Of a DNA stretch of 64,000 bases, positions 783 through 49,008 are shown one piece after another. The translations under genes and the position numbers were made by a program. Position 1 is the stretch's first letter. Each line of letters opens with the position of its first letter. The DNA is from Deltaproteobacteria bacterium RBG_13_43_22 (lineage in GTDB: Bacteria; Desulfobacterota; RBG-13-43-22): assembly GCA_001797675.1 (NCBI GenBank), contig MGQB01000036.1:1-64000 (forward strand), read 5' to 3'. The notes below the pieces were generated by a model. It saw nothing but the letters and a program-made list of their open reading frames with translations. It did not search any database and was not told the origin of the DNA.

Positions 783-3266
783 ATGAGTTTAGCCAAACGC
801 ACCATCGGGTCTCAGGTTTCTCCGGACCCTTTACGGGTAACCAAGGAGATGAGGAAAAGCATTGTCTACCAAAATAAAAGCAGTCGGGGTTCGGGAAGGA
901 TTGAAGCCGCCAAAGGGAATGTGACCCGCGTCAAGGAAGAGGGCCGCAACCCTTACCGGGATGAGGTCAAACTTTGTATCGAACGGGCCAGGCTGATCAC
1001 CGAAGGATATCAGGCCTCGGAAGGCGAACCGATGGTCCTCCGGCGGGCCAAGGCCATGGCCCATTTCCTGGACAACAGGACCCTGTACATCCTTCCTCAA
1101 GAACGTATCGTGGGAAATGTAGCCAGTGAACCCTGCCAGATGATCACTTTCCCGGAAAAATGGAGCAGTTGGCTGGACAAGGCCATTGATACCGAATACA
1201 GCCAATTACTGGATGACGATAAGCGTTCCGAACTGCATCAGATCCATAAATATTGGAAAGGAAAATCGGTTCACGGCATGGAACGGAATCTCCTGCCCAA
1301 GGATATCCTCTACTACTGGTTTTATCCCAATCAGGGGGTCTTCTTGTGGCGCCACGGCGGCCATGTGGGATCGCCGGATTACCCCAAAATTTTCCGGACC
1401 GGTTTAAAAGGGATCATCGCCGAGGCCAAACAAAAGCTGGAAGAAATCAGATCCGATCCGGAACTCTATCTGCACGCCAAAGACTTTCTCAAGAAAAAGG
1501 CCTTTTACGAAGCGGTGATCGTTTCCTCCGAAGCGGTGATCCGACAGGGTAAAAGGTTCTCCGAGCTTTGCCGGCAAGAGGCGGCCAAGGCTTCTGATCC
1601 CAAGAGAAAGACCGAACTCGAGGAAATGGCCGTGGTTTGCGACTGGGTGCCGGAAAATCCACCCCGTAACCTTCATGAAGCCCTTCAGTTCTACTGGTTC
1701 ATCAATCTGATTGTCCGGGTCCTTGACCTTCAAACCTCCGGTAATGGTGACCGGGTGGACCAGATCTTCTATCCCTTTTATAAAAAAGACAAGGAAGAAG
1801 GCCGCCTGACCTACGAGCAGGCCCAGGAACTGGTGGAACACCTTCTGCTCAAATTTAATGAAGAAGGGGCCTTGATTCCTCCCTCCCACCCTTCGGCCGG
1901 ACCTCTGATCACCCGCGTGGTAACCATAGGCGGGGTGGATACCGAAGGTTTTGACGCCACCAATGAAATGACCTATATCATGATGGACGCCAAGGATGAA
2001 GTGGGTTTCAATCAGCCGGCCCTGGCTGTCCGGCTGCATCCTCAAACACCCCAGAGACTATATCAAAAAATCATCTCCTCATTGCTCAAACAGCCCGGTG
2101 TCTATTCCTTTTTTAACGACAATATGATGATCCCCTTTCTGATGAACCTCGGCCTTCCCCTGGAAGACGCCCGGGATTACGGAACTGACGGCTGTATGCG
2201 CTGGATCGTACCCGGCAAGGCCATGTGTCAAAGGGCTTTGGGGGGCACCTTCGTCCTGCCCAAGTGCCTGGAATATGCCCTCTACCAGGGCCTGGATAAA
2301 TTCAGCAATAAGCAGGTGGGGGCCAAGACCAGCGATCCATTGACCTGGACCTCGGTGGATGATGCCATGCAGGCCTATCTGGAACAGCTCAAATTCTTTT
2401 TACACAAACTGGTTACCATCTATAATATCGTGGATGTCCTGGAGGAAGAGTGGCTTCCCCAGCCCTTTCTCTCTGCTGTGGTGGACGGTTGTCTGGAAGC
2501 CGGAAAAGACTGTCGCGAATTCAAATACTATCACAACACCATCATTCAACCGGTGGGTCAGGTGACCATCATCAACTCCCTGGCGGCCCTCAAAAAATTG
2601 GTTTTTGATACCAAGAAGGTCCCGATGGCCGAGCTCCTCGAGGCCTTGAAAAACAATTGGGAGGGACGGGAGGATTTGCGTCAACAATTTATCAATGACG
2701 CCCCCAAATGGGGCAATGACGACGATTATGTAGACCTCATCGGCCGGGAATTTTACCGGAAGACCAACCAGGCCTTTAAAAGCTTTAAGAATATCTGGGG
2801 CTGGCCCTTCAATGAAGACGGAACCGGGGCCTCTTCCTATTATGATTACAGCGGAATGACCGGGGCCACACCCGACGGCCGGAAGGACCTGGATCTTTTC
2901 AATGACGGGACCGTATCTCCGGTTATCGGCACGGACAAAAAAGGACCTCTGGCCACCATGAAATCCATCAGCAAGTTGGATCACGCCGGAACCTTTACCC
3001 ACCTGTTCAATCAAAAATTCACCCCTCAGGAGTTAAAAAAGAACAACGGGGCCAATTTCATCGCCCTGTTGAAAACCTTTGTCGACCTCGGCATTCACCA
3101 CACCCAATTCAATGTCATCGACCGGGAGACTTTGATCGATGCTCAGATGCATCCGGATCAATATTCCGATCTGGTGGTCCGGACCGCCGGTCTGGCCGCT
3201 TATTTTGTGGACATGACCAAGGGAGTGCAGGACCAGATCATCGAGAGAACCGAACTGAGTCTTTAA
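783..3266 (+). CDS. glycyl-radical enzyme (PFL-like family), substrate unknown
   Basis: 827 aa; thiyl-Cys loop DYGTDGCMRWIVPGK (Cys codon 2193-2195), FVLPKCLEYALYQG, C-terminal glycyl-radical motif VVRTAGLAAYFVD (Gly codon 3189-3191). RBS GGGAGG upstream. Confidence 0.92.
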   Translation: MSLAKRTIGSQVSPDPLRVTKEMRKSIVYQNKSSRGSGRIEAAKGNVTRVKEEGRNPYRDEVKLCIERARLITEGYQASEGEPMVLRRAKAMAHFLDNRTLYILPQERIVGNVASEPCQMITFPEKWSSWLDKAIDTEYSQLLDDDKRSELHQIHKYWKGKSVHGMERNLLPKDILYYWFYPNQGVFLWRHGGHVGSPDYPKIFRTGLKGIIAEAKQKLEEIRSDPELYLHAKDFLKKKAFYEAVIVSSEAVIRQGKRFSELCRQEAAKASDPKRKTELEEMAVVCDWVPENPPRNLHEALQFYWFINLIVRVLDLQTSGNGDRVDQIFYPFYKKDKEEGRLTYEQAQELVEHLLLKFNEEGALIPPSHPSAGPLITRVVTIGGVDTEGFDATNEMTYIMMDAKDEVGFNQPALAVRLHPQTPQRLYQKIISSLLKQPGVYSFFNDNMMIPFLMNLGLPLEDARDYGTDGCMRWIVPGKAMCQRALGGTFVLPKCLEYALYQGLDKFSNKQVGAKTSDPLTWTSVDDAMQAYLEQLKFFLHKLVTIYNIVDVLEEEWLPQPFLSAVVDGCLEAGKDCREFKYYHNTIIQPVGQVTIINSLAALKKLVFDTKKVPMAELLEALKNNWEGREDLRQQFINDAPKWGNDDDYVDLIGREFYRKTNQAFKSFKNIWGWPFNEDGTGASSYYDYSGMTGATPDGRKDLDLFNDGTVSPVIGTDKKGPLATMKSISKLDHAGTFTHLFNQKFTPQELKKNNGANFIALLKTFVDLGIHHTQFNVIDRETLIDAQMHPDQYSDLVVRTAGLAAYFVDMTKGVQDQIIERTELSL

Positions 3267-3534: not shown

Positions 3535-4335
3535 ATGGAATTTGACAAAATGTTCTTAAAGGAAGAAGACGGCATTGCCACCTTGACCTTGAATCATCCG
3601 GAGAAGCTGAATGCCATGTCTACTGAGATGTGGAATGATTTTCGGAAAATCATTGATTACCTCCAGGGGAATAACGAAATCAATGTCCTGGTAATTACCG
3701 GTTCCGGGCGGGGTTTTTGTTCGGGATCGGACGTGGGTGCCAGGCTGGCCGCCAATATCGAAGGCCGCGGACCCACCAAGACCCAGGCCGATTTACTGGA
3801 AGGAACGGGGTACGTGGCCGGGTTGATCAGAAACCTGGAAATTCCCATCATAGCCGCCATAAACGGGGTGGCCGCAGGGGCGGGCCTTTCCCTGGCCTTA
3901 CTGAGTGATGTCCGTATCGCTTCGGAAACCGCCCGTTTCGGTGCCATCTGGGTCCGGGTCGGTCTGGTCGGAGACCTGGGAGCCACGCTTTTGCTTCCCC
4001 AGCTTATCGGCCCGGATAAGGCTATTGAAATGCTGACCACCGGGATCATGATTGACGCCCGGGAGGCCGAGCGTATCGGATTGGTTACAAAAGTGGTTTC
4101 TCCCGAGGCCCTGATTCCCACGGTCTATGACCTGGCCACTAAACTGGCCAAGGGGCCGGCCTTACCGATCAAATTGATGAAAAAGGCTGTTTATAAGGGA
4201 CTTCGCCACAACGACCTCCAAACCCAACTGGAATTTGAAAGCTTTGCCCAGGGGGTCTGCCGTCAATCCGAAGATCATCGTGAAGGCGTCCGGGCCTTTA
4301 TGGAAAAAAGAGAAGCCCGGTTCAAAGGGATATGA
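3535..4335 (+). CDS. enoyl-CoA hydratase/isomerase (crotonase) family, PaaG-like catalytic residues
   Basis: 266 aa crotonase fold (GSGRGFCSGSD, AINGVAAGAGLSLALLSDVRIAS, VGLVGDLGATLLLPQLIG). Confidence 0.9.
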   Translation: MEFDKMFLKEEDGIATLTLNHPEKLNAMSTEMWNDFRKIIDYLQGNNEINVLVITGSGRGFCSGSDVGARLAANIEGRGPTKTQADLLEGTGYVAGLIRNLEIPIIAAINGVAAGAGLSLALLSDVRIASETARFGAIWVRVGLVGDLGATLLLPQLIGPDKAIEMLTTGIMIDAREAERIGLVTKVVSPEALIPTVYDLATKLAKGPALPIKLMKKAVYKGLRHNDLQTQLEFESFAQGVCRQSEDHREGVRAFMEKREARFKGI

Positions 4336-4592: not shown

Positions 4593-5486
4593 TTAAATAA
4601 GACCTGCTTTGGACATGATATCAGGAACCAGCTCTTCCCTACCAATAGCCATGATATGAACCCCATCACACATTTTTTCGTCATGTAAGCGTTTGATCAT
4701 TCGACCGGCAATTTCAATCCCCTTTTCAATGGCCCTTCCTTTTGGGGCGGAGGCCATCTCGTCAATCAGATCCTGAGGAACGTTTACACCGGCCACATTT
4801 TTATTCATAAATCTGGCCATGGGTGCCGAAGTGAGGAGAATAATCCCGGCCAAAATCTTAACCGGAAATTGCCTGGCGTAGTTCATGAATTTTTTAAAAT
4901 TATCCAGGTCATAAACGGCCTGGGTTTGAATGAATTCCGCCCCGGCCTCGATCTTCTTTTCAAATTTTAAAAGTTGGGGTTCAATCGGGTTGGCCTCCGG
5001 AGTTACGATTGCACCGGCACAGAAAGAGACTGTTCCTTCCAGCTTATTGCCCCCGAGATCCAATCCCTTTTCCATTTGTCTGATAGCGGCCAGGAGCTGG
5101 CTTGAATCCAGGTCGAAGACGGCTTTGGCCTCCTTATGATCTCCCAGGATAATGGAATCTCCGGTCAGACATAAGACGTTGTTTATTCCTCTGCTGGCGG
5201 CGAACAATAGATCGGCTTCCAGCGCCATCCGATTCCGGTCACGGCAGGTCATTTGCAAAATAGGCTCCCCCCCAAGTTCTTTGACCATAAGAGCACCTCC
5301 CAGAGACGGGAACCGCATCACCGAACTCTGATGATCCGTAATATTCACGGCATCCACCTTGTCTCTCAATAATTCAATATGATGGATCATTTTTTCAAGA
5401 TCGGTTCCTTTCGGGGGAGCCACTTCTGAGGTAACCACGAACCTGCCTGACTGTAAGGCCTTGCTGAATGAAGAAACCATTGCCAA
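4593..5486 (-). CDS. metF: methylenetetrahydrofolate reductase, MetF-type
   Basis: 297 aa; TSEVAPPKGTDLEKM, NITDHQSSVMRF, VLCLTGDS, FIQTQAVYDLDNFKKF and SAPMARFM motifs; conserved Glu, Asp and folate Gln present. Confidence 0.88.
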   Translation of the reverse strand: MAMVSSFSKALQSGRFVVTSEVAPPKGTDLEKMIHHIELLRDKVDAVNITDHQSSVMRFPSLGGALMVKELGGEPILQMTCRDRNRMALEADLLFAASRGINNVLCLTGDSIILGDHKEAKAVFDLDSSQLLAAIRQMEKGLDLGGNKLEGTVSFCAGAIVTPEANPIEPQLLKFEKKIEAGAEFIQTQAVYDLDNFKKFMNYARQFPVKILAGIILLTSAPMARFMNKNVAGVNVPQDLIDEMASAPKGRAIEKGIEIAGRMIKRLHDEKMCDGVHIMAIGREELVPDIMSKAGLI

Positions 5487-5511: not shown

Positions 5512-6156
5512 TCACAAATTCCATTTTCCCGGAGTGGGCTCAACCTGATAATTCCGGGGCCTTTTCAGAACTCTTATAAAATCCAGGCGATTCAACTTTT
5601 CCAGTCGATTATAGATTAGGGTCCAGGCACAATCCTTGTTCGAATCTATCTCACATTTTCCGTCATTGGTGCCGCCGCAGGGTCCGTTGACCAAACCCTT
5701 ATGGCAAGAAGTCACCGGGCATATCCCCCCGGTTTCGCCGATGATGCAAGATCCACACTGGCTGCAGATTTCGTTAAAAAGCCCTTCCGAGGTCTGCTTC
5801 CCCATAAACAAAGTATCCAGAGCCGGTACTACCATTTTATTCGCATATCCGGCCACGGTTTGAACCCCAAAGGCGCAGGTCATTATTAAAAGTAGATCCG
5901 CCTGATTAATCTGATCTCCGTACTCCTTCAGCGCTTCGCTGGTCAGGTTGTCACAGGCGACCGGTAATACCGCCTGCCCGGTAATGAGTTTCCCTTTATC
6001 CCTTAATCGACGCTGCATAGCAGTCACTTCGGGTTCTCCCCCGGTCCTGGTCATGGTAACGCAGGTTCCGCACCCGATGATGAAAATCCTGCTATAGCCG
6101 TTTAATAAACGGTCTATCTCCTCTTCGGTTTTCTGCCGGGTTATTGATCGAATCAT
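5512..6156 (-). CDS. MetV-like methylene-THF reductase C-terminal domain protein (Cys-rich)
   Basis: 214 aa; CGTCVT, CSQCGSCIIGETGGICPVTSCHKGLVNGPCGGTNDGKCE, characteristic of the MTHFR_C/MetV family; adjacent to metF. Confidence 0.85.
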   Translation of the reverse strand: MIRSITRQKTEEEIDRLLNGYSRIFIIGCGTCVTMTRTGGEPEVTAMQRRLRDKGKLITGQAVLPVACDNLTSEALKEYGDQINQADLLLIMTCAFGVQTVAGYANKMVVPALDTLFMGKQTSEGLFNEICSQCGSCIIGETGGICPVTSCHKGLVNGPCGGTNDGKCEIDSNKDCAWTLIYNRLEKLNRLDFIRVLKRPRNYQVEPTPGKWNL

Positions 6157-6166
6157 GCTTGATCTC

Positions 6167-9100
6167 CTATCTTAAATCCCTCTCTAAATCACACCTCAGA
6201 CATCTCATGGCCTCATATAAGGCCTGGCTTTCTTCCAACCCCTTTTCCACTTCCCTGAAATCCTTCAGCCTCGCTTCCGGTTTCTCCATTTCAAGTCCGG
6301 CCCTTGGTTTTTCATCCGGTGATTGTTCCTCCAAGGCCAGGCCCAGAGGCTCAGGCATGGCGGACTTTTCATCGAATATCTCCAACCGGCCTTTTTTACC
6401 CAACAGATATCGGTCTATGGCTAAAGCCGCCCTTCGGCCCGAGGCGATCGCCCGAATGACGGTACTGGGACCGGTTGTAAAATCTCCACCGGCGAAGATG
6501 CCGGGAATGTTGGTGGAAAGGCTGTTTTCGTCGACAGCCAGACTTCCCCATAAAGCCCTTTCTAGCTGGGTATCTTTGGTTAAAAAAGAGATGTCCGGGG
6601 CCTGCCCAATGGAAATGATAAGGGCATCGGCATTAATCCTCCGGGTGGACTGTTCATCAACGCTCAGATGGGAGCGTCCGTCTTCATCAAAAATGGTTTT
6701 GCTGCGCATAAATTCGATCCCGGACAGCTTTCCCCCATCATGAAGGATTCTTTTGGGAGCCCATAAAGGATTGATGACAACGCCTTCCTCGATCGCCTCT
6801 TCAATGTCTTTTCGCCAGGCCGGCATCTCCTCTTTGGTTCTCCGATAGAAAATCTGAACGTCCTGAGCCCCGATCCGGAGTGCGGTTCTGGCCACATCGA
6901 TAGCCACGTTGCCGCCTCCCAAAACCACTACCTTCCCTTTTAAATTTCTTTTCTTATCGGTTCGGATATCGGTCAGTAATTGAAGGCCGTAGTAAATGCC
7001 TTCGATCCCTTCATCTTCTCCTTGAATGCCTATTCTTCGGATAGACTGGGCCCCGGCCGCGATAAATAAAGCGTCATACCCCTCCTTCATAAGATCATTA
7101 ACCGTGTGCCTGGCGTCAATGGGCGAGCTGTATCGAATCTCCACGCCACAGCTTTCAATGTAATCGATTTCTGCCTGAATCACTTTTCGGGGCAACCGAA
7201 ATTCAGGTACGGCCAGCCCGAGCATGCCGCCTCCTACGGGTTGTTCCTCGAAAACGGTCACTGGATAACCCATCTTGGCCAAAAAATAGGCCCCGGTCAG
7301 TCCGGCCGGCCCGGCGCCCACCACGGCGACTTGTTGTTTTTTCGTTACCGTGAAAGGTTCTTCCGCCAGGCCGATGTTACCTAAATACCAATCCGCGGCA
7401 AAGCGTTTAAGGGATCGAATGGCAACGGGATCATCCAATTCTCCGCGACGGCATTTAAACTCGCAGGGGTGGATACAGATACGGCCGCAGACGGCCGGAA
7501 AAGGATTTCTTTCCCGGATGATTTTTACGGCCTGCTCATATTTCCCGGCCGCGATCGAGGCAATATAATTCGGCACATCAATACCCGCCGGGCAGGCATG
7601 CTGGCAGGCGGATATAACCATCGAATCACAGGTTGCTCCGGCGCAACGGCGGTCCAATATATGCTCTTCATATTCTTTTAAAAAATACTGAAGGGTTGAC
7701 AAAGCAGGCTTCGGAGCGGTTTGTCCGAGACCGCAGAGAGAGGACTTGATAATCGTCTCCCCCAGTTCCTTGATGGTTTTAATATCCTCGAGACGGCCTT
7801 TCCCCTGGGTAATACGGGTCAGGATCTCCAATATCTGGGTGGTCCCAAGCCGGCAGGGCGTGCATTTGCCGCAGGACTCGGACTGGGTAAAACTTAGAAA
7901 GAAACGGGCGATCTCCACCATGCAGTTGTTTTCATCCATAACCACCATGCCGCCGGAACCCATAATGGCGCCGACCCGCTGCAAGGTATCGTAATCGATG
8001 GGAAGATTCAGGTACTGGGATGAAACGCAACCACCCGATGGACCTCCCATCTGCACCGCCTTGAATTCCCTCCCCTTGGGAATGCCTCCGCCGATATCAA
8101 AAACAACCTCCTTTATGGCAGCGCCGATCGGCACCTCAACGAGCCCCGTATGGTTCACTTTTCCGGCCAGTGAAAAGATCTTCGTTCCCTTGCTTTTCTC
8201 CGTGCCTAACTGGGAGTACCATTCAACCCCTTTCTGAATGATCAGGGGGACGTTGGCCCAGGTCTCGACATTATTGATATTGGTCGGTTGCCCCCCAATG
8301 CCCGATTGGGCCGGAAAGGGGGGGCGTGGTTTCGGCATTCCCCTTTTCCCTTGAATGGAGGCCATAAGGGCGGTCTCTTCCCCGCAGACAAAGGCGCCTG
8401 CCCCCATTTTTAAGGAGAGATCAAAATGAAAACCCGTGCCCAGGATATTATTACCCAATAGGCCCATCTCTCTCATCTGGTTCAAGGCGATTTGAAGGTG
8501 TTCAACCGCGATGGGGTATTCCTCTCTGACATAGATGTAGCCATACTCTGCTCCGATAGCGTAGGCACCGATAAGCATTCCTTCCAGAACTAAATGGGGG
8601 ACCCCCTCCAAAACAGCCCGATCCATAAACGCCCCCGGATCCCCCTCGTCGGCGTTGCAAACGATATATTTGGGAAAACTCTTTACCCTTTGAGCCAGTT
8701 CCCATTTAACCCCGGTATAAAACCCGGCTCCTCCCCGTCCTCTGAGTTTTGCCGCTTTTATCTCCTCTATGACCTGGGTCGGTTTCATTCCGGACAAGAC
8801 TTTAATAAGAGATTGATACCCTCCGGCGGCGATATAATGCTCAATCTTTTGAGGATCGATTCGGCCGCAATCCGCCAGAACCCTTTTCACCTGTTTCTTA
8901 TAAAAGGGAATCTGATGGTAATGATAGATGGGTTCCCCTGTCGGGAGCGCTTTGTAGGCCAGTCTGTCGATCAATTTATGATTTTTCAATGTTAAAGAAA
9001 CAATATCAAAGGCGTCATCCGGGCTCACTTCCCCGTATTGAATGCCTTTTGGTTCGATAGTCAAAACCGGTGCTCTGGCACAAAAACCATGGCAACCCGT

Positions 9101-9292
9101 AGAACGCAGTTCCACTTTACCTGAAAGACCTTGTTGGTCGATTTCCTTTTCGAGGGCGGCTCTGACTTCTTCAGCGCCATAAGCACGGCAACCCGTCATA
9201 CAGATACATACCAATTCCTTCGCTTTGGTCTCCCGGGCAAGGATCTTATTGCGATACCATTCAAATTCACCGATGGATGGAATTTTTTCCAT
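6167..9292 (-). CDS. NuoF-like flavoprotein fused to GltD-like NAD(P)H:FAD oxidoreductase (2Fe-2S / NuoF / GltD)
   Basis: 1041 aa; N-terminal thioredoxin-like 2Fe-2S (CMTGCRAYG...STGCHGFC), NuoF (RGRGGAGFYTGVKW, CNADEGDPGAFMDR, ESCGKCTPCRLG), then a GltD/NfnB-like half (VVGAGPAGLTGAYFLAKMG, VVLGGGNVAIDVARTALRIGA). Confidence 0.93.
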   Translation of the reverse strand: MEKIPSIGEFEWYRNKILARETKAKELVCICMTGCRAYGAEEVRAALEKEIDQQGLSGKVELRSTGCHGFCARAPVLTIEPKGIQYGEVSPDDAFDIVSLTLKNHKLIDRLAYKALPTGEPIYHYHQIPFYKKQVKRVLADCGRIDPQKIEHYIAAGGYQSLIKVLSGMKPTQVIEEIKAAKLRGRGGAGFYTGVKWELAQRVKSFPKYIVCNADEGDPGAFMDRAVLEGVPHLVLEGMLIGAYAIGAEYGYIYVREEYPIAVEHLQIALNQMREMGLLGNNILGTGFHFDLSLKMGAGAFVCGEETALMASIQGKRGMPKPRPPFPAQSGIGGQPTNINNVETWANVPLIIQKGVEWYSQLGTEKSKGTKIFSLAGKVNHTGLVEVPIGAAIKEVVFDIGGGIPKGREFKAVQMGGPSGGCVSSQYLNLPIDYDTLQRVGAIMGSGGMVVMDENNCMVEIARFFLSFTQSESCGKCTPCRLGTTQILEILTRITQGKGRLEDIKTIKELGETIIKSSLCGLGQTAPKPALSTLQYFLKEYEEHILDRRCAGATCDSMVISACQHACPAGIDVPNYIASIAAGKYEQAVKIIRERNPFPAVCGRICIHPCEFKCRRGELDDPVAIRSLKRFAADWYLGNIGLAEEPFTVTKKQQVAVVGAGPAGLTGAYFLAKMGYPVTVFEEQPVGGGMLGLAVPEFRLPRKVIQAEIDYIESCGVEIRYSSPIDARHTVNDLMKEGYDALFIAAGAQSIRRIGIQGEDEGIEGIYYGLQLLTDIRTDKKRNLKGKVVVLGGGNVAIDVARTALRIGAQDVQIFYRRTKEEMPAWRKDIEEAIEEGVVINPLWAPKRILHDGGKLSGIEFMRSKTIFDEDGRSHLSVDEQSTRRINADALIISIGQAPDISFLTKDTQLERALWGSLAVDENSLSTNIPGIFAGGDFTTGPSTVIRAIASGRRAALAIDRYLLGKKGRLEIFDEKSAMPEPLGLALEEQSPDEKPRAGLEMEKPEARLKDFREVEKGLEESQALYEAMRCLRCDLERDLR

Positions 9293-9789
9293 TATTTTAT
9301 TTCACTCTCTCCTGTTTTTGGCCGGCTGTATTGCGCGAGGATACTTTTTACTTTTGGTGGTGAAAGTTTGCCAAAGTAAGTCCTGTTGACCATCATAGCC
9401 GGAGCCAGAAAACAGGCTCCGAGACAGGCTACGGTCTCGAGGGTGAACTGATAATCGGGACTGGTTTCTCCTTCTTCCAGATTCAATTCCTTTTTAATAA
9501 ACCGGAGAATGCTTCGGCTTCCTTTGACATGACAGGCCGTACCCCGACAGCTTTTGATGACATTTCTCCCTTTGGGCTCCAGAGAGAAACCGGCATAGAA
9601 GGTAATGACCCCCTGAACCTCACTGGGGAACAGTTTCAAGGCCTCAGCCACGGGCTCAATGAATTCCGGAGGCAGGTAACCGAACTCCTCCTGGATATCC
9701 TGAAGCAGCGGGATAAGGGCCCAGTTCTCATCCCGATGACGTTTTATTATCTCATCGAGGCGGCCCCAATCGATCTCTTTTTGGGTCAT
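9292..9789 (-). CDS. NuoE-like 2Fe-2S thioredoxin-fold subunit
   Basis: 165 aa; EFGYLPPEFIEPVAEAL, CRGTACHVKGS, CLGACFLAPAMMVN; start overlaps the downstream gene at 9292. Confidence 0.93.
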   Translation of the reverse strand: MTQKEIDWGRLDEIIKRHRDENWALIPLLQDIQEEFGYLPPEFIEPVAEALKLFPSEVQGVITFYAGFSLEPKGRNVIKSCRGTACHVKGSRSILRFIKKELNLEEGETSPDYQFTLETVACLGACFLAPAMMVNRTYFGKLSPPKVKSILAQYSRPKTGESEIK

Positions 9790-9871: not shown

Positions 9872-12565
9872 TCAAGTCTTTTCGATCTTTACATTGATCT
9901 CCTTGAATCCCGGAGAATTCGGAGCCTCCAAAGTCGTTAAGGGGAGTAAATTCCTGGCATCATTTTCATAAAACGCCCGGGGAACAAATATCAATCCGGG
10001 TTTTTGATTTCGCACAACTTTAACTTTTCTCTCTATGCTTCCGTAAGACGAAGATAGGCGGATTTTATCTCCGTCCAGGAGATGAAGTCGTTCCCCATCT
10101 TTTATGGAGACTTCGATCTCGCCGGATAACGGCATCTGGTTTATCCGGTTGGAAGAGCCGGTTCTCGTTCCACTGCCAAGATGGTATCTCCAGGAACCCA
10201 GGATGGCCTTAAATGGGAAATCTTCATCGCGGATATTTTCCTTTAAAGGCACCAGAGGCGAAAACAGGGCTGATTCCCCTGATTCATCCGGATGAAAAAG
10301 GGCCAGATCGCTTTTTTCCTTAATCCAGGAGCTATTCCCGTTTTTCCCCCATTGCGAGTACAGGGGGGCCAGTTCCCGGATTTCATCCCTTATTTTTTCT
10401 ATGGTCCTGTATTGGGCAGGCAAACCCATTTGATTTCCCAAAAAACTCAAGATTTCCCAGTCGGGTTTTGCCTGGCCGGGAGGCGATACTACCGGATCGA
10501 AGGATTGTATTCTTCCTTCCAGGTTGGTGAAGCTGCCCGCTTTTTCACTAAAGGCGGCCCCCGGCAGGACGACATCGGCCATTCTCACGGTTTCACTATC
10601 CAGTATGTCTTGAACAACAAGGAACTCCAGATTATCAAAGGCTTTACGGATCTGCCCGGGTTGGGGAAGACTTCGCAGGGGATTTTCCCCCATGATATAC
10701 ATCGCTTTTAGATTTCCTTCTTCCGCCGCTTCGATCATTTTGATTATATTCAGCCCCGGATCAGGGGATATTTTTATTTTCCAGGCACGGTCCCAATATT
10801 TTCTGATTTCATTATCAACCAAAGATTGACGCCCTGGAAGGAAATCCGGAACAGCTCCCATATCCCAGGCACCCAGAGCATTATTTTCCATGGTTAGAAA
10901 GTAAAATCCTGTACCCCTCTGCCCCAAACTCCCGGTCATTAGGGCGAGGTTGAGTAAAGCGTCAATGACCTCAAGCCCGTTTCTTTGTTGCAGAATCCCA
11001 TGTCCGACTACAAAAACTATTTTCTTTCCGGCCAATAGATCCGCGGCCTTTTCCAATCCTTCCGGTTCAATTTCGGTGACTCGGGATATTTGATCGAGAT
11101 TCATTGCCGATAGTTCTTTAAAATATTCGTCGGAGCCCTGAGTAAAACGTTTGACGAATTGGGCATCGTAGGCCTTCCGATGATAAAGAAGAGCCGCCAG
11201 GCCGTTTATCAGATAATAATCGGTTTGCGTTGCCAGGGGCATCCAAAGTGAAGCAAAAGGGATCAAATCCGTTCTTCTTGGATCCGCCACAATAATCGGA
11301 ACCCCTTTTATTTTTGAGACCCTTTTCAGATGGTAACCCAGCACCGGTAAAGAATGAGTTGGATCGGCTCCCAGGACAAGGACCACTTCGGCCTTTTCAA
11401 GGTCCTTTAAGGGCCCTATCGACATTCCACCCAACCTGCTCTGGAATCGGTTCAATACGGACCTCCCGGTCAGGAATCCGCCATTATCAATATGATTGGT
11501 TTGTAAAATAACCCGGGCTATTTTCTGAAATAAGTAGTTCTCTTCAAGACTGCATTTGGATGAGCCGAAAAAGGCAATGCTTTGGGGACCGTTTTTCTTT
11601 TTGATCGAAAAAAGTTTATCGGTAACCACTGCAAACGCTTCCTCCCAGGTTGCCGGAGAAAGCTCACCATTTTTGCGCAGTAATGGAGTGGTCAGCCTTT
11701 GGGAAGAACTCAAAAAATCATGGGCAAAATGCCCCCGAACGCAAAGGGTGGACTGGTTAATCGAATTTTCGACAGGAGAAGGGTTTACGTCAACGATTCG
11801 GTTATCTTGGATCCCCATAACCAGTGAACACCCCACCCCACAAAAACCGCAGATAGAAGCCATCTCTTTCTGTGGGGAACCTGCGAAAGAAACATTTTTT
11901 ACCGCAAGCGCCCCGGTGGGGCAAATGGATATGCAGGAGCCGCAAAAAGTACAGGAGGATTGTTCCAAAGGTCTGTCATGGACCGTGGCGGGCCGAGACC
12001 TGAATCCTCTCTGGTTGTAATCAATCGCCCCTACCCCAACCAGTTCATGATCGGCCCTTATACATTTACCGCACAGAATACATTTGCTGAGATCCCTGAT
12101 AATGAAAGGATTGGCCTCTTCAAAACCGGTATAATGAGGCATTGGATAAAGATCGTACGTCCCGACTCCCAACTGAGAAGCGATTTTTCTCAACTCGCAA
12201 CGGTTCCCTTTATTGCAGACAATGCAGGATTCCGGATGATTGGCCATGAGGAGGCGGATGATGTTTTTACGGTGTGCTCTGACATTCGGGGAGTCGGTCT
12301 GAACGGATAGATTCTCTGAGACGGGGGTGACACAGGATGCCAGGATGCGCCCGTTTTCATCTTCGACAAGGCAGAGACGGCAAGCACCTATGGGTTCCAG
12401 GTGGGGATGATGGCAAAGGCTGGGGATCCTGATATCGTTTTCTTTGGCGGCATTGAAAACGGTCGTCCCGGCACGACAAACGATCTTCTTTCCATTTATG
12501 GTCAGGTTTATTTCATCCATTGTTCCAACTTTTATTATTGAACAGATGAAATGCTCATGCCCCAA
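9872..12565 (-). CDS. formate dehydrogenase alpha-like / NuoG-like iron-sulfur molybdopterin-fold protein lacking the catalytic Sec/Cys-His
   Basis: 897 aa ORF (likely start 12520, MDEINLTINGKK); N-terminal 2Fe-2S and 4Fe-4S clusters, CGFCGVGCSL cluster, molybdopterin oxidoreductase body; active-site segment reads NHIDNGGFLTGRSVLNRF. Confidence 0.9.
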   Translation of the reverse strand: MGHEHFICSIIKVGTMDEINLTINGKKIVCRAGTTVFNAAKENDIRIPSLCHHPHLEPIGACRLCLVEDENGRILASCVTPVSENLSVQTDSPNVRAHRKNIIRLLMANHPESCIVCNKGNRCELRKIASQLGVGTYDLYPMPHYTGFEEANPFIIRDLSKCILCGKCIRADHELVGVGAIDYNQRGFRSRPATVHDRPLEQSSCTFCGSCISICPTGALAVKNVSFAGSPQKEMASICGFCGVGCSLVMGIQDNRIVDVNPSPVENSINQSTLCVRGHFAHDFLSSSQRLTTPLLRKNGELSPATWEEAFAVVTDKLFSIKKKNGPQSIAFFGSSKCSLEENYLFQKIARVILQTNHIDNGGFLTGRSVLNRFQSRLGGMSIGPLKDLEKAEVVLVLGADPTHSLPVLGYHLKRVSKIKGVPIIVADPRRTDLIPFASLWMPLATQTDYYLINGLAALLYHRKAYDAQFVKRFTQGSDEYFKELSAMNLDQISRVTEIEPEGLEKAADLLAGKKIVFVVGHGILQQRNGLEVIDALLNLALMTGSLGQRGTGFYFLTMENNALGAWDMGAVPDFLPGRQSLVDNEIRKYWDRAWKIKISPDPGLNIIKMIEAAEEGNLKAMYIMGENPLRSLPQPGQIRKAFDNLEFLVVQDILDSETVRMADVVLPGAAFSEKAGSFTNLEGRIQSFDPVVSPPGQAKPDWEILSFLGNQMGLPAQYRTIEKIRDEIRELAPLYSQWGKNGNSSWIKEKSDLALFHPDESGESALFSPLVPLKENIRDEDFPFKAILGSWRYHLGSGTRTGSSNRINQMPLSGEIEVSIKDGERLHLLDGDKIRLSSSYGSIERKVKVVRNQKPGLIFVPRAFYENDARNLLPLTTLEAPNSPGFKEINVKIEKT

Positions 12566-12643: not shown

Positions 12644-13519
12644 CTACTTGAGTTCAGCGGCATCCAGAAATAATCTTAGTTTATCCTCGGCTCCCAAAGT
12701 AATGATATGAATTCCTTGGCAGAGATCCTTCAGTCCGGTCACAATCTCGGTAAATATCTCGATGCTGGCCTTCTGCCTGTCGGTCGCTTTGGCTAATTTC
12801 TTGATGATCCAATCAGGAACCAATCCTGATTGTAAATGTCGATTCAGAAACTGGGCCATTCCGGCAGTTCTTAATATAATGACCTCGGCAATAACCGGTA
12901 CGCCAAAAGATCGGACCGGTTTCATAAATTTTTCAAAGGTGACCAGGTCAAAGACAGGAGTAGTCAGAAAATATCCTGTTCCCATCTTGGTTATCTCCTC
13001 CATCTCCCTCATTTCCAAATCCGGAATATTTTTCCCCCACTTGGATTCTATACCGGAACCTACAGTAAACTCGGCTTTCAGGGATAGTTCTTTACCGTCA
13101 ATGGTGGATCCCTCTTTCAGGTGGTCTAATACGGAGCTCAATTTTCCTACATCCACATGAAAGAACATCATTTCCTGAAGACTGTCTCCTGTAATCCGAT
13201 AATCTTCCGTAAACACTAAAAGATTTTCTATTCCCGCCTGATGTGCACTGATAAGATCTTTTTGTAACTGAGGGCGATTTTTGTCTCTCGTAGTGGTCTG
13301 GTATATGGATTCAAACCGGTTCTGTTTCAGAAGTTCGCATATCTTGATGCTGTCACCGACAATGCCTTCTACCTCCAGTTCCGGTACGGCAATACCGTCA
13401 ACGCGTCCGCGCACCAATTGAAGACGTTTGATAAGTTCTTGCGGTTCTTCATCAAGAGGTGCCTGAACTTCTGAAGTGACCACGAATTTCTCTTTTGTTA
13501 GAGCCTCTTTAAGCCTCAT
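12644..13519 (-). CDS. divergent MetF-like protein (second paralog)
   Basis: 291 aa; TSEVQAPLDEEP, LLVFTEDYRITGDS, FLTTPVFDLVTFEKF, AGMAQFL; collinear with the MetF at 4593-5486. Confidence 0.8.
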   Translation of the reverse strand: MRLKEALTKEKFVVTSEVQAPLDEEPQELIKRLQLVRGRVDGIAVPELEVEGIVGDSIKICELLKQNRFESIYQTTTRDKNRPQLQKDLISAHQAGIENLLVFTEDYRITGDSLQEMMFFHVDVGKLSSVLDHLKEGSTIDGKELSLKAEFTVGSGIESKWGKNIPDLEMREMEEITKMGTGYFLTTPVFDLVTFEKFMKPVRSFGVPVIAEVIILRTAGMAQFLNRHLQSGLVPDWIIKKLAKATDRQKASIEIFTEIVTGLKDLCQGIHIITLGAEDKLRLFLDAAELK

Positions 13520-13553: not shown

Positions 13554-14135
13554 CTATTCCTCTCCGATTAGACCTAATAATTTGGCAACCTCCTTTTTTA
13601 ACTGGGGCAGGGGCAGGGGCTTGGAAAAGCAAAGGTCGGCGCCATAATCCTTCATCTTTTTAAATTTTTCTTCATCCAGATAAGCCGACAAGACAATAAT
13701 TTTGGTATTTTTTGTGTCTTCGTTGGATTTTACTTTTTTACAAACTTCATATCCCTTAATATCCGGCATCATAATGTCAAGGATTAAAAGGTGGGGGTTA
13801 AAATGATTGACCTGAAGGCCGGCTTCAAATCCGTCCGAGGCCGAAATAATCTCATAATCGTATTCCTCTTCTTCCAGGGCCTGGACTATCGTTTCCACTA
13901 TTATGGCGTCATCATCAACAATAAGAATGCGTTTTTTCTCACCAATAGCCTCTGTTTCAGGTATGGGTATACCCTGCTTTCTCATAAAATCTTCAAGTTT
14001 TGACCTTTTTATGCGCCTGTGGCCACCTACGGTTTTGTAAGCCTCGATATGACCGGCTTCAATCCAATTAATAATGGTCTTTGGAGAGACACTGCAATAG
14101 TTGCTGGCTTGAAAAACGGTCAGAATATCATCCAT
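13554..14135 (-). CDS. response regulator with N-terminal excisionase/MerR-type HTH and C-terminal receiver
   Basis: 193 aa; VFQASNYCSVSPKTIINWIEAGHIEAYKTVGGHRRIKRSKLEDFM (HTH) then ILIVDDDAIIVETIV...LLILDIMMPDIKGYEV...KPLPL (REC). Confidence 0.9.
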   Translation of the reverse strand: MDDILTVFQASNYCSVSPKTIINWIEAGHIEAYKTVGGHRRIKRSKLEDFMRKQGIPIPETEAIGEKKRILIVDDDAIIVETIVQALEEEEYDYEIISASDGFEAGLQVNHFNPHLLILDIMMPDIKGYEVCKKVKSNEDTKNTKIIVLSAYLDEEKFKKMKDYGADLCFSKPLPLPQLKKEVAKLLGLIGEE

Positions 14136-14577: not shown

Positions 14578-16749
14578 TTATTCTTCAAAATTTTCCTTAT
14601 AACTGGGAAGAGTGATGGTAAAGGTCGTTCCTTCGCCTATCCTGCTGGAAACCTGAATATGTCCGCCATGTTCTTTAATAAACCCATAACATACAGACAA
14701 TCCAAGACCTACACCTTTGATGCTGTCCTTTGTAGTGAAAAAAGAATCGAATATTTTCTCAATGATCTCCTGGTCGATACCGATCCCGGTATCAGTGAAT
14801 TCAATATGAATATTATCTTTATTGGGACTTGTTTTGACGGTTAGGGTCCCTCCCTCAGGCATGGCATCTCTGGCATTGGATATCAGGTTGAGAAAAACCT
14901 GGCGCAGTTGATTTTTAGAGGCAAAGACCTGGTCTAAATCGGGAGAAAAAGAGGAGGCAATAGTAACCCCGTTTTCCTGCAGCTGTTTTTTTACCAGTAC
15001 CAGTATCTCATCGATAATAGTATTAATATCGACCGTTTGTTTTTCTTCTTCATCTGGCCTGGAAAAGCTGAGCATTTTTCGCAGCAGTTCTGTCAGGCGT
15101 ACGGTTTCTGAAAGAGCCATTTCAAGAATTTTTCGCCTTTTGCTCTGAGGAGAAACCTCTGTTTTCAGAAGCTCGAGGGTGTTCATAATACCATACAGAG
15201 GATTATTTAATTCATGGGCGATCTGGGAGGTCAATCGACCCATGGCCGCCAACTTTTCTGATTGAAGGAGTTGTTCTTGTGTAATCCTGAGTTTGCGTTC
15301 CATATCCAATCTCTCTTTTAAATCTACAAACACCCCTACCGAAGCAATCTCTTTACCCTGGCCGTCATAAACAATTGCTGCCGAGAGGTTTCCTTCAATG
15401 ATTTGCCCATCCCGCCGCTTATAAACCATTGGATAGGATCGCAATTTCCCAATCCCGCCATAGTCAGGGCTTCGAAGCATTTTCATGACCTGTTGGGCAA
15501 CTCCCTCGGGATAGATTTTACGGATATTCATTTTGCCGATGACCTCATAGGCTTTATACTCCAAAATCTCTTCTGCAGCCTTGTTCCATATAAAAATATC
15601 CCCTTTCATATCCGAGGCCATGATGGCATTGGGGGAGCTCTTAATGAAATTATTCAAGAAATCGTTGGTTTCCCTGAGTTCTTTCTCCATCTGTTTTCTC
15701 TGAGAAAGATCAATATTGATTCCTTCATAGCCGATTAATTTTCCCTGTTGATCATAACGAACATGACCGGTAAGAAGGACCGGAATTATAGTGCCGTCCT
15801 TTCGCTTAAATTCTACTTCGTAGCCGATCACATGGCCTTGTTTTTCAATCATATCCATGAATTTATTTCGATCCTCGGCCCTGGCATATAGATCCTTGGT
15901 GATATCGATGTTCAGAAAATCCTCTTTACTTTTATAACCCAACATGTCGAGTAAGGCCTGATTGGCGTTTATAAATTTTCCCTCTCGAGTGCTGATAAAT
16001 ACGCCGCAGCCAACGTTTTCAAACAATCTTTTATATTCTTCCTCCATCTGTTTTCTTTGAGATTGATCAACCATAATGCCTTCATATCCCAAGATCTTAT
16101 TTTCATTATCATAACGAACATGACTGGTCATCAAAACCGGAAGAAGGCTGCCATCTTTTCGTTTGAAGTTTACTTCATAGTCAATGACATATCCATTTTG
16201 TTCTATGTTATCCATGAATTTGTCTCGATCTTCGGGTCTGACATATAGATCTTTGGTGATTTCGATGTTTAGAAACTCTTCTTTACTCTCATAGCCCAAC
16301 ATATCCAACAGGTAACGATTGGCATTTAAAAATTTGCCTTCTTTACTACTCACATACAAACCGCTGCGAACATGCTCAAATAATCTTTTATAATCTTCTT
16401 CCGAAGATCTTGCTTTTTCTTCACTTATTTTCCTCTTGGTAATGTCCTTAAAAATACTCACCTTCGATTTAGAGACATTTTTGTTTTTCAAGGACATTTC
16501 AATGAGGGTATAATATTTCCCCTTGGCTGGGAGGTGTAATTCGCTATTAAGGGTGGCGCCCTCGAAAACTTCTTCTGCCCGGCACCAAGGACACCTTTCG
16601 TCACTTCCATTGATTACTCTATAGCACTTCTTTCCAACGCCTTCTCCAAAGTCCCGAATCATTGACTTATTCATGAATTCTATAGTGAAATCCTCTTTGA
16701 TGACGCAAATGCCTTCTTCAATCAAGTTAAGAATTGAAATTGCTTTCAT
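14578..16749 (-). CDS. multi-PAS sensor histidine kinase
   Basis: 723 aa; several PAS/PAC repeats, QIAHELNNPLYGIMNTLELLK H-box, VFLNLISNARDAMPEGG, GVGLGLSVCYGFIKEHGG. Confidence 0.92.
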   Translation of the reverse strand: MKAISILNLIEEGICVIKEDFTIEFMNKSMIRDFGEGVGKKCYRVINGSDERCPWCRAEEVFEGATLNSELHLPAKGKYYTLIEMSLKNKNVSKSKVSIFKDITKRKISEEKARSSEEDYKRLFEHVRSGLYVSSKEGKFLNANRYLLDMLGYESKEEFLNIEITKDLYVRPEDRDKFMDNIEQNGYVIDYEVNFKRKDGSLLPVLMTSHVRYDNENKILGYEGIMVDQSQRKQMEEEYKRLFENVGCGVFISTREGKFINANQALLDMLGYKSKEDFLNIDITKDLYARAEDRNKFMDMIEKQGHVIGYEVEFKRKDGTIIPVLLTGHVRYDQQGKLIGYEGINIDLSQRKQMEKELRETNDFLNNFIKSSPNAIMASDMKGDIFIWNKAAEEILEYKAYEVIGKMNIRKIYPEGVAQQVMKMLRSPDYGGIGKLRSYPMVYKRRDGQIIEGNLSAAIVYDGQGKEIASVGVFVDLKERLDMERKLRITQEQLLQSEKLAAMGRLTSQIAHELNNPLYGIMNTLELLKTEVSPQSKRRKILEMALSETVRLTELLRKMLSFSRPDEEEKQTVDINTIIDEILVLVKKQLQENGVTIASSFSPDLDQVFASKNQLRQVFLNLISNARDAMPEGGTLTVKTSPNKDNIHIEFTDTGIGIDQEIIEKIFDSFFTTKDSIKGVGLGLSVCYGFIKEHGGHIQVSSRIGEGTTFTITLPSYKENFEE

Positions 16750-16899: not shown

Positions 16900-17829
16900 A
16901 TGATAAAACATGAACCGGAGGCCCGACCAGACCAGGGATCCATTTTTCTTATCCAAAGTTACAGCACCAATGACGGTCCTGGGATAAGAACCACGGTCTT
17001 TATCAAAGGTTGTCCCCTTAAGTGTCTGTGGTGCCACAACCCGGAATCCGCCAACAGTTTTCCGGAACTCATGATTCATGATGATCGGTGTATCGGCTGC
17101 CGTAAATGTCTGGAGATTTGTCCGGTAAAGGCCATCTCCTTTCATCCGGAAAAAGGCAGACGGATCAACCGCAAACGGTGCAATCGTTGTCTTGAATGCG
17201 TTGCGGTTTGCCCGGCCAAATCCTTGACCGCGGTGGGTGAAATCATGACCGTTGAGCAGGTGATGGCCGAGATCCTTAAAGACGAGTTGTTTTTTAACCG
17301 CTCCGGCGGAGGGGTAACCGTTTCCGGCGGGGAACCGCTTTCCCAAGGCCCCTTTGTCCTCAAGCTGTTAATGGCCTGTAAAGAACGGGGGTTGCACACA
17401 GCGTTGGATACCAGCGGGTATGGCTCCTGGTCTGTTTTGGAAAAGCTTCTCGATTATCTGGACCTGATTATGTTTGACGTCAAACATATGGACCCCAAAG
17501 CCCATAGCCGGGGCACCGGGAAAAGTAATGTGTTACCCATTTCCAACTTACGACAGATCCCTCGGGACATCAAGGTCTGGATAAGGCTGCCGCTCATCCC
17601 CGGTTACAATGATTCCACAGAAAATTTGAATAAAGTGATTGCCTTAACCCGGGAAACAGGGGCGGAAAAAATTTCTCTTTTGCCCTTTAATCGTTACGGG
17701 GACGGAAAATATCTGAACTTGGGCCGGAAAATACCCTTCCCGGGGATCAACCCGTTCAGCCGGAAAAAGATAGAAGAATTCAGGGCCCACCTGGAAAGGT
17801 CCGGACTTCCGGTGACTGTAGGAGAATAG
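16900..17829 (+). CDS. glycyl-radical enzyme activating enzyme (radical SAM with two ferredoxin-type clusters)
   Basis: 309 aa; STNDGPGIRTTVFIKGCPLKCLWCHNPES, CIGCRKCLEICP, CNRCLECVAVCP, GGGVTVSGGEPL. Confidence 0.95.
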   Translation: MIKHEPEARPDQGSIFLIQSYSTNDGPGIRTTVFIKGCPLKCLWCHNPESANSFPELMIHDDRCIGCRKCLEICPVKAISFHPEKGRRINRKRCNRCLECVAVCPAKSLTAVGEIMTVEQVMAEILKDELFFNRSGGGVTVSGGEPLSQGPFVLKLLMACKERGLHTALDTSGYGSWSVLEKLLDYLDLIMFDVKHMDPKAHSRGTGKSNVLPISNLRQIPRDIKVWIRLPLIPGYNDSTENLNKVIALTRETGAEKISLLPFNRYGDGKYLNLGRKIPFPGINPFSRKKIEEFRAHLERSGLPVTVGE

Positions 17830-17916: not shown

Positions 17917-18732
17917 ATGAAATGGAGGCAGAAAATAATGACTACTGAAAAAACCGTTCTCATGGAAACCAAAAACAGGATTTGTGTTGTGACCTTTAAT
18001 CAACCGGACAAACTGAATGCTATGAATGACGCCATGGCCGAAGAATTCAGGGCAGCCATCCATAAAATTAAAATGGACCCGGATCCTAAAGTCCTTGTCC
18101 TTACCGGTGCAGGCCGTGCCTTTAGCGCCGGCGGTAACCTGGAAAAGATGAGAGGCAGTGTTGGATCGAACCCGGCCAAGCGGAAAAGGGAGTCCTTTGC
18201 CTTTTATAATTCTTTCCTCCGTATCATGGACTTGGAAATTCCGACCATCGCCGCCATCAACGGCCATGCCATCGGCGCCGGGGCCTGTGTCAGCCTGGCC
18301 TGTGACATGCGGATTGCAGCCGAGAACAGCAAGATCGGTTTCACCTTTACCAAGATCGGACTTCATCCGGGGATGGGTGCGGAACACTTTCTTACCCGAA
18401 TGATAGGCCGGGCCCGTACCTTTGAATTGCTGATGACCGGAGACATCCTCTCGGCCGAAGAGGCCTTTCGTATCGGGCTGGTCAACCATCTGGCACCCCC
18501 GGAAAAATTAATGGAAAAGGCTCTGGAATTGGCCGGAAAAATTGCCGCTATGCCGGTTTTACCCATCCGGATGCTTAAGGAATCCATTGATGCCTCCACG
18601 AGAAATACCCTGGCCGAGACCCTCCACCGCGAATCGGCTTATCAGGCCCTATGCTACATGACCACTGATATCGCCGAAGGGATCGATTCGGCCAGAGAAA
18701 AAAGGGCTCCGAATTTTAAGGATGAATACTGA
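17917..18732 (+). CDS. enoyl-CoA hydratase/isomerase (crotonase) family protein
   Basis: 271 aa, probable start 17938 (MTTEKTVLMETKNRI); GAGRAFSAGGNLEKM, AINGHAIGAGACVSLACDMRIAAE, IGLHPGMGAEHFLTR. Confidence 0.9.
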   Translation: MKWRQKIMTTEKTVLMETKNRICVVTFNQPDKLNAMNDAMAEEFRAAIHKIKMDPDPKVLVLTGAGRAFSAGGNLEKMRGSVGSNPAKRKRESFAFYNSFLRIMDLEIPTIAAINGHAIGAGACVSLACDMRIAAENSKIGFTFTKIGLHPGMGAEHFLTRMIGRARTFELLMTGDILSAEEAFRIGLVNHLAPPEKLMEKALELAGKIAAMPVLPIRMLKESIDASTRNTLAETLHRESAYQALCYMTTDIAEGIDSAREKRAPNFKDEY

Positions 18733-46629: not shown

Positions 46630-49008
46630 TCAGGTTGCCAAAACATCCTTTATTTTTTTTGAAAGATCATCGAGCCGGAAGGGTTTCTGCAGAAATACCT
46701 GCGCCCCTCCCCGATCCATGATCTCCTTCGCCTCACCTTCCAAACTGTAACCGCTGGCCAGGATCACCTGGACCCGGGGATTGATGGATTTTATGATATC
46801 GATCGCTTGGCCCCCCCCGATCCCCGGCATTACCATATCCATGATCACCAGGTCAAAGAGATTGGGATCGCTCTGAAAGCGCTCCACGGCCTCTTCCCCG
46901 CTGCGGGCGATCACGACCTGATATCCCAGCCCGGTTATCATCGATCCAACCACTTCGGTTATGACCTTCTCATCATCAACCAGGAGAATGATTTTGGGAC
47001 CCGTTTCGGTCTCCTGAAAGGATTGATCTTTGACGACCGGTTCGTTGGGCGATGCCGGAAGGTAAATATTGAACGTCGATCCTTGCCCTTTTTCGCTGAA
47101 GACTTCAATCATACCGCCATGTCCCTTGATAATGCCATAGGCGGAGGCCAAACCGAGTCCAATCCCTCTGCCCATCTCTTTGGTGGTAAAAAAAGGATCG
47201 AAAATACGTTCCCTGGTCTTTTCATCCATCCCCACCCCCGTATCCGTGACGGATACCTTCACATAGGGACCGGGCGTTATTTCATAGGGTTGGACAACGG
47301 ATTCATCCAACAGGACATTTTCCGTCTCCAGATAAAGGGTGCCCCCGCCGGGCATGGCATCCGCGGCATTGATGAAAAGGCTCAGAAGGACCTGTTCTAT
47401 TTGCCCTCGATCTGCCTCCACAAGCCAGGGGGGCTTTGCAAACTGACGACGGACTCGAATGGCCTTTTTCATTCTTTCGAACATGGAGGAGGCCTTGTCG
47501 ACCAATTCACTTAGGTTGGTGGGCAAGATTTCATAGCGTCCGCCGCGGGCATATCCTAACAACTGCCGGGTCAATTCGGCCCCGGTCTTAACCTGAGCCC
47601 CTATAGCCTTGAGTCTTTCGTAAAACGGATGTCCGGGATCAATATCCAACAACATTAAGGAGGCGTACCCCTGGATCCCCATGAGCAGATTGTTAAAATC
47701 ATGGGCAATGCCTCCAGCCAAAGTCCCGATGGCCTCCAGTTTCCTGGCCTGGTTAAGCTGCTGGTTCAGTCGTTCCCGGTCTGCCTCGACCTTCTTTCTG
47801 TCGGTAAAGTCCTGAACGATTCCCCGGAAGCCGATGGGATTTCCTTTGGCATCACGGATCAGCGAGACTGACATATTCAAATAGGCAACCTGGCCGTCCT
47901 TACGGATAATTTCATAATCAAAAATCTTGGAAGGGATTCCCGTTCGGTATATTTCGTTAAATATTTTATAAATTCTTTTGGCTGTTTCCGGTGTAGCGTA
48001 TCGGCGGTTGTTCATACCCATGAGCTCTTCCCGGGGATATCCGAATATCCGGCAGGCGGCATCATTAAAAAAAGTCATATTGCCGGCCAGATCCACTTCA
48101 TAACAACCGGACTCTACGTTTTCCACAAAATCCCGGAATTTCTCCTGCTCCGCTTCCATTCTTTTTAGTTCGGTGACATCCCAGGTAATACCGCGGAAAC
48201 CAATAATATGCCCGGCGGCATCACGGTTTAATGAAGCCGACAATTGCATTCGCCTGGCAGTTCCATCCTTGCGAATAATTTCATAATCCAAATCAAACCT
48301 CTTGGCAGAGGCCCCAAATCGGTATTTTTCATTGAATCCGGTAAAGACTTTTTTTGCTGTTTCCGGTGACATATATTCCCGGTTATTCATACCTATCAAT
48401 TCTTCACGGGTGCGCCCATGATACCGACATACGGCTTCGTTGACAAAAGTATAATTCCCGGCCAAGTCAACTTCGAAATATCCTTCTTCCATATTTTCAA
48501 TGATACTGCGATACTTCTCTTCACTTTCCCTTAGGGACTCCTCGACCTCCTTGAGCCGAGTGATTTCAGTGGTCATGGTCAATAGACAGTCTTCGCCTCT
48601 AAACCGGTAAGGACGGGCCGATACCAGGTCGTAAATAATAGACCCGTTTTTGCGCCGAAATTTGACCTCCATCCCTTCCACGAAACCGTCCTGACGTAAG
48701 CCATTAATCAGCCTTTGCCGGCCATCGGAATCAGCATACAGATTTAAGTCAAAGGGGGTTCGGCCGATGACTTCTTCAGGACTATATCCAGTCAATCGGC
48801 AGAAGGCTTTATTGACCTGAAGGTAACGCCCGTCACTGATCCGGGTGATGGCAGCCAATTGCGGGGCCATTTCGAACATGTTTTGATAGAGTTCCGCAAA
48901 TTCCCGCAGATCGCCCCCCAAGGTCTCCAACTCTTGAACACGGCTCCGTAGGACCTTCAGCTCTTCCAGAAGCTGAGCCTTGGTTTTTCCCCGATCGTCC
49001 CTGATCAC
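46630..49008 (-). CDS. multi-PAS hybrid sensor histidine kinase
   Basis: 792 aa; [63 protein letters not shown]. Confidence 0.92.

Follow-up and report, generated by a model that had tools for sequence, protein, structure and literature searches.

A formate dehydrogenase-like protein without catalytic residues, probably retained as the iron-sulfur wire and scaffold of a MetVF methylene-THF reductase complex

NuoEFG homologues encoded together with MetFV have been described as an unstudied 'X type' of MTHFR that is possibly bifurcating. It has been reported in Dethiosulfatarculus sandiegensis and described as widespread among Desulfobacterales as well as Chloroflexi (PMC8515935, 2021), and the NuoEFG-MetFV arrangement is already known, as a prediction, from that work. 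In StnABC of Sporomusa ovata, the StnAB module bifurcates, and an FdhF-like domain is inactive yet needed for assembly (PMC10482914). GltD-like and NuoG/FdhA-like modules are shared by Stn and SfrAB (PMC7483475). For reverse Wood-Ljungdahl organisms, confurcation has been proposed for the electrons from methyl-THF (PMC6295475). The operon analysed here matches the X type in gene arrangement, with nuoEFG homologues upstream of metV and metF, the comparison being one of description (the text of the paper names a NuoEFG homologue without analysis). From its sequence, we consider it quite likely that the G subunit, FdhA', derives from an FDH alpha subunit and now serves a MetVF methylene-THF reductase complex as its Fe-S wire and scaffold.

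The operon lies on the minus strand of the window, the whole stretch of 64,000 nucleotides that was analysed, in the order regulator, MetF2, FdhA', NuoE, NuoF::GltD, MetV and MetF1, preceded by a histidine kinase gene; the intergenic gaps from the regulator to MetF1 are at most 124 bases. The PAS histidine kinase (14578 to 16749), usually found upstream of the operon, is followed by a response regulator with an excisionase-type HTH that is conserved upstream (13554 to 14135), and by MetF2 (12644 to 13519), a diverged MTHFR-like protein with Thr at the Gln183 equivalent, which immediately precedes the FdhA' gene in 26 of 39 loci. Downstream of FdhA' are a NuoE-like [2Fe-2S] subunit (9292 to 9789), the NuoF::GltD fusion (6167 to 9292), MetV (DUF5981; 5512 to 6156) and MetF1 (4593 to 5486). 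Conservation stops at the operon edges, and the outer flanks are not conserved. On the opposite strand, the operon is flanked by genes for a glycyl radical enzyme (PFL2-3 family; 783-3266) and a glycyl-radical activating enzyme (16900-17829), and two plus-strand ORFs (3535-4335 and 17917-18732), judged by eye, are enoyl-CoA-hydratase-like. Farther along, the window encodes an outer membrane usher protein (PF00577; 41127-43769) and two adjoining long PAS histidine kinase/response regulator hybrids (46630-51749).

The minus-strand open reading frame at 9872-12565 is real and runs without interruption. The ATG at 12520 is the likelier start, because the orthologues share MxxIxLTINGK at their beginning, and the predicted product of 882 aa (9872 to 12520) is an FDH-alpha/NuoG-like, catalytically degenerate protein. 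The protein aligns to E. coli FdhF without gaps, and Thr351 (codon ACC, 11468 to 11470) falls on Sec140 and Gly352 (codon GGG, 11465 to 11467) on His141, so that the Sec/Cys ligand and adjacent His of an FdhF-type alpha subunit are both missing. The equivalents of Arg333 and Gln335 are missing as well: the substrate Arg333 is replaced by Thr543 (10892 to 10894) and Gln335 by Glu545. Furthermore, Arg581 is changed to Ser776, and Lys44, between the proximal cluster and the pterin, to Arg262 (11735 to 11737); E. coli NuoG also has Arg at this position. Residues near the metal were lost and some residues on the nucleotide side were retained. A phmmer alignment with YjgC has a one-column gap near the active site, and under either alignment no Cys or His appears. 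Accordingly, the first-pass annotation, which had read the Sec/Cys as Thr and the His as Gly, was confirmed, and neither Cys/Sec nor His stands at the metal ligand position in the FdhF and YjgC alignments. The ACC codon and the gap-free alignment rule out that misalignment or Sec readthrough masks a Cys or Sec.

On the other side of the protein, the iron-sulfur wiring is nearly complete. The [2Fe-2S] ligands Cys36/47/50/63 (12332 to 12415) and the His-ligated [4Fe-4S] motif His95/Cys99/102/108 (12197 to 12238) are followed by a dicluster ferredoxin-like motif (11921 to 12082), with Cys147/150/153/200 and Cys190/193/196, in which Asp157 (12050 to 12052) replaces the eighth Cys. This ligand position is Cys in 57 of 58 live FDHs and Asp in 52 of the 55 clade members scored; the clade members L071, L072 and L074 have Cys there. 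The proximal [4Fe-4S] motif, Cys224/227/231/260 (11741 to 11851), is invariant and was rightly called intact at first reading; the accompanying claim of intact N-terminal clusters held for nearly all ligands, and failed at position 157. As in an FdhF-type alpha subunit, this motif is combined with the FDH fold, which is retained in an AlphaFold model (mean pLDDT 84, weak at about 96-215) with a TM of 0.93 to MeFDH1.

FdhA' belongs to a group of 57 proteins (48 core and 9 outer members, the window protein included), none of which has the Sec/Cys-His pair; the core members are 44-63% identical to the window protein. A branch with SH-aLRT 99 separates the 57 from the remaining sequences in a quick tree built from 117 sequences, and a careful tree, which has 47 sequences and is rooted with FdhF, groups its 25 sampled members in one clade (support 99/96), which makes several independent losses inside the clade needless. 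Gly352 is conserved (46/48 core members). Position 351 is not: it is Ser in 24/48 and elsewhere Asn, Phe, Ala, Gly, Thr, Leu, Tyr or another residue, and this variability rules out Thr as a conserved substitute ligand. L071 is the only member with Cys at 351, and it has Gly at 352 and lacks Arg333. It belongs to Desulfoluna butyratoxydans MSL71, a cultured carrier of the operon in which no MetF2 adjoins FdhA'. In the quick tree, two more FdhA-like proteins without Sec/Cys, L092 and L034, are placed outside the clade; they have Glu and Ile at the Sec position, are encoded among complex I genes, and are FDH-like NuoGs with a separate loss.

The distribution of conservation between the two parts of the protein is reversed in this clade. 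Over 325 clade pairs, mean identity is 70% in the Fe-S region (1-210) and 49% in the former Mo/pterin domain (residues 223-882; 9875 to 11854), and in no pair is the Mo domain the more conserved; over 1378 pairs of live FDHs, the corresponding values are 46% and 59%, with the Mo domain more conserved in 97% of pairs. In the 325 clade pairs, identity is 70% for NuoE, 73% for NuoF-GltD, 74% for MetV and 83% for MetF1, so that no other part of the operon is as little conserved as the Mo domain. About 96 of the 204 positions that are invariant in live FDHs are changed in the clade, grouped around the active site, and the clade has also gained new invariant positions. For the Mo domain, close pairs give an omega of 0.14-0.32, against 0.06-0.18 for the Fe-S domain, showing that selection on the Mo domain is relaxed, yet purifying.

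Genomic context, missed at first reading, ties these proteins to MetVF. Among loci whose sequence extends 6 kb or more downstream, MetV, MetF1, NuoE and NuoF are all present in 31/31 dead loci, whereas all four are found together in 0/19 live FDH loci. MetF1 has intact active-site residues, equivalent to Glu28, Asp120, Gln183 and His273 of E. coli MetF; for MetV, a solved relative was sought by sequence and none was detectable. The NuoF half of the fusion (7616-9292), an FMN/NAD(H) module, has its closest relatives among the HydB-type subunits found in bifurcating enzymes. This match runs to about residue 559, where the GltD half (6170-7615) begins, and the C-terminal ferredoxin-type dicluster domain of HydB is absent from NuoF::GltD. 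The GltD half, a GltD/StnC-type FAD/NADP(H) module, is closest to Stn/Nfn-type NADPH modules, and the equivalents of StnC Lys170 and Arg239, Lys629 and Arg699, are invariant in 39 sequences. The basal L074 has neither the ferredoxin-type domain nor GltD, yet it retains FdhA'-NuoE-NuoF-MetV-MetF. L081, a Cys-FDH beside MetV-MetF, together with L084 and L077, suggests an origin for the FDH-MetVF pairing.

The rest of the genome provides a background for this operon. A separate Sec-FDH with an in-frame TGA is encoded on C28. L131 (G000:C28:6651-10772) encodes a StnC-like chain made up of [2Fe-2S], GltD insert, Fe-S and FdhA parts, and an in-frame TGA stands where Sec is expected; it is apparently a live FDH of Stn architecture. 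The genome has five MetV genes; therefore, with four besides its own copy, the FdhA' operon is not necessarily the main Wood-Ljungdahl MTHFR, and the organism seems, from its gene content, to run several MTHFR-type complexes. One other MetV set adjoins Fhs and includes an HdrA/GltD fusion as well as an MvhD-like ORF (these last two named from sequence features). The four further MetV-MetF sets, on G000 C1, C2, C4 and C19, have differing neighbours, with HdrA-type fusions on C2, C4 and apparently C19. L133 (G000:C1:66000-84000) has NiFe-hydrogenase-like genes, judged by eye, together with NuoE, a NuoF::GltD (49% to that of the window), a NuoG-like protein and a MetF of classical type; the comparison covered the Nuo and MetF parts. 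CdhC was found in the genome; it is present in 14/16 core-clade genomes and in 185/297 genomes of the sample, an association with acetyl-CoA synthase that is only suggestive.

The probable role of FdhA' is to carry electrons in the MetVF complex, not to act on formate, because it is always encoded beside MetVF, its catalytic residues are lost and its Fe-S wiring is nearly all kept. This reading is favoured since the linkage separates dead from live loci completely, since a single clade has lost the catalytic residues together and reversed its domain conservation, and since MetF1 has an intact active site and the flavin modules are of HydB and StnC type; the separate Sec-FDH and the earlier notice of the operon type as X type point the same way. 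The ancestor would have been an active formate dehydrogenase alpha subunit whose formate chemistry was lost, most simply once, the protein being kept as wire and scaffold. Electrons would enter or leave at the FMN (NAD(H), NuoF half) and the FAD (NADP(H), GltD half), cross NuoF/NuoE and then the FdhA' clusters, and arrive at MetV and then the MetF1 flavin, where methylene-THF and methyl-THF would be interconverted. We infer the single physical complex, the electron path, the MetVF docking site and any bifurcation or confurcation from sequence. The first-pass annotation had proposed an electron-wiring scaffold like NuoG that is not decayed and probably does not oxidise formate, and all three parts gained support from the single clade, the purifying selection, the reversed conservation and the loss of all substrate residues. 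The equivalent proximal clusters of StnC lie off the electron path, which counts against a wire, and the missing HydB ferredoxin-type domain, which also counts against our explanation, makes classical ferredoxin coupling uncertain. More tentatively, the operon may encode a three-way flavin machine, in which GltD takes the place of the HydB ferredoxin-type domain and methyl-THF oxidation to NADH is driven by NADPH, not ferredoxin (or the opposite process, in the reductive direction); the dead FDH domain might then dock MetVF, electrons might leave by the former Mo-side [4Fe-4S] cluster, and the cluster ligated by Asp157 might tune the branch.

Other readings were weighed against the same evidence. 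The operon could encode a Stn-like transhydrogenase that works independently next to MetVF, in parallel to Sporomusa ovata, whose stn adjoins metVF; FdhA' would then be its scaffold. The GltD half with its Lys170/Arg239 equivalents and the HydB-type NuoF would suit this, and Stn, encoded downstream of metVF, has an inactive FdhF domain; however, we find this improbable considering the missing HydB ferredoxin-type domain, the invariant MetVF linkage, and the basal L074, in which FdhA', NuoE, NuoF, MetV and MetF are kept without GltD. That FdhA' still binds a Mo/W pterin and catalyses a different reaction, the metal being held by Ser/Thr or by no protein ligand as in DMSO reductase or arsenite oxidase relatives, is unlikely. 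The retained fold, the nucleotide-side Asp478, Lys679 and mostly Arg204 equivalents, the frequent Ser at the ligand position and the Cys of L071 speak for it, but the same position also holds residues such as Phe, Ala and Leu, Arg333, Gln335, Arg581 and further near-metal residues are lost, and the Mo domain is the part of the operon that is conserved least.

It is very unlikely that FdhA', NuoE and NuoF provide NADH input, as a spare NuoEFG, to a membrane complex I that lacks such a module, with MetVF a mere neighbour. The NuoEFG homology, the complex-I-type NuoH genes elsewhere in the genome and the FdhA-like NuoGs that L092 and L034 have in complex I operons are in keeping with it; against it are the NuoF half, which is HydB-type and fused to GltD, and the gene context, namely the unbroken MetVF linkage and the clade loci, in whose operons complex I genes were looked for and none found, which disfavours FdhA' as a complex I NuoG. 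The chance that the gene is a pseudogene or a sequencing artefact is practically negligible: the catalytic residues are indeed absent, but all 57 members have an open frame with conserved cluster ligands, and the purifying selection in the Mo domain rules out a pseudogene.

In the open-access literature searched, we found no earlier description of the degenerate-FDH identity of the G subunit, the conservation reversal, the Asp ligand or the NuoF-GltD fusion. FdhA' would be a further molybdo-enzyme converted to wiring, and genes of this type can be misannotated as formate dehydrogenases, which is a warning. The potentials of methyl-THF (about -200 mV) and NAD(H) (-320 mV) differ, and NADH formation from methyl-THF is endergonic. 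A conserved MetVF operon with a probable FDH-derived wire and HydB/GltD flavins, carried by sulfate-reducer-type bacteria, makes it testable how electrons pass from methyl-THF to NAD(H) in bacteria with a reversed Wood-Ljungdahl pathway.

Compared with known systems, FdhA' shares full-length domain order and fold with the alpha subunits of NAD-dependent FDHs (6TG9, 7VW6, 9WXB; TM 0.90-0.93 for 6TG9 and 7VW6 against the model), but these have the active-site Sec/Cys, His and Arg, and FdhA' is without all three. NuoG of complex I is likewise an Fe-S wire on a dead molybdopterin-type domain with Arg at the Lys44 position, whereas FdhA' is outside any complex I operon and its sequence resembles live FDHs more than NuoG. 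The HdrABC-MvhD-MetVF MTHFR of Moorella thermoacetica also pairs MetVF with a putative electron-bifurcating module; it uses an Hdr module, and the window operon NuoEF/FdhA' instead. StnABC of Sporomusa ovata (8OH5; PMC10482914) resembles the operon in its NuoE- and HydB-type subunits, its NADPH/FAD GltD module, its inactive FdhF-like domain and its position adjoining metVF. However, in StnC, GltD is inserted in the NuoG chain, while in the window no single chain joins GltD and NuoG parts: GltD is fused to NuoF, replacing the ferredoxin-type domain, and FdhA' scores about 450 bits against FDHs and 225 bits against StnC. To the X-type MTHFR, the window operon adds an FDH-derived, degenerate G subunit, the NuoF::GltD fusion, the Asp ligand and, in many cases, another MetF-like gene.
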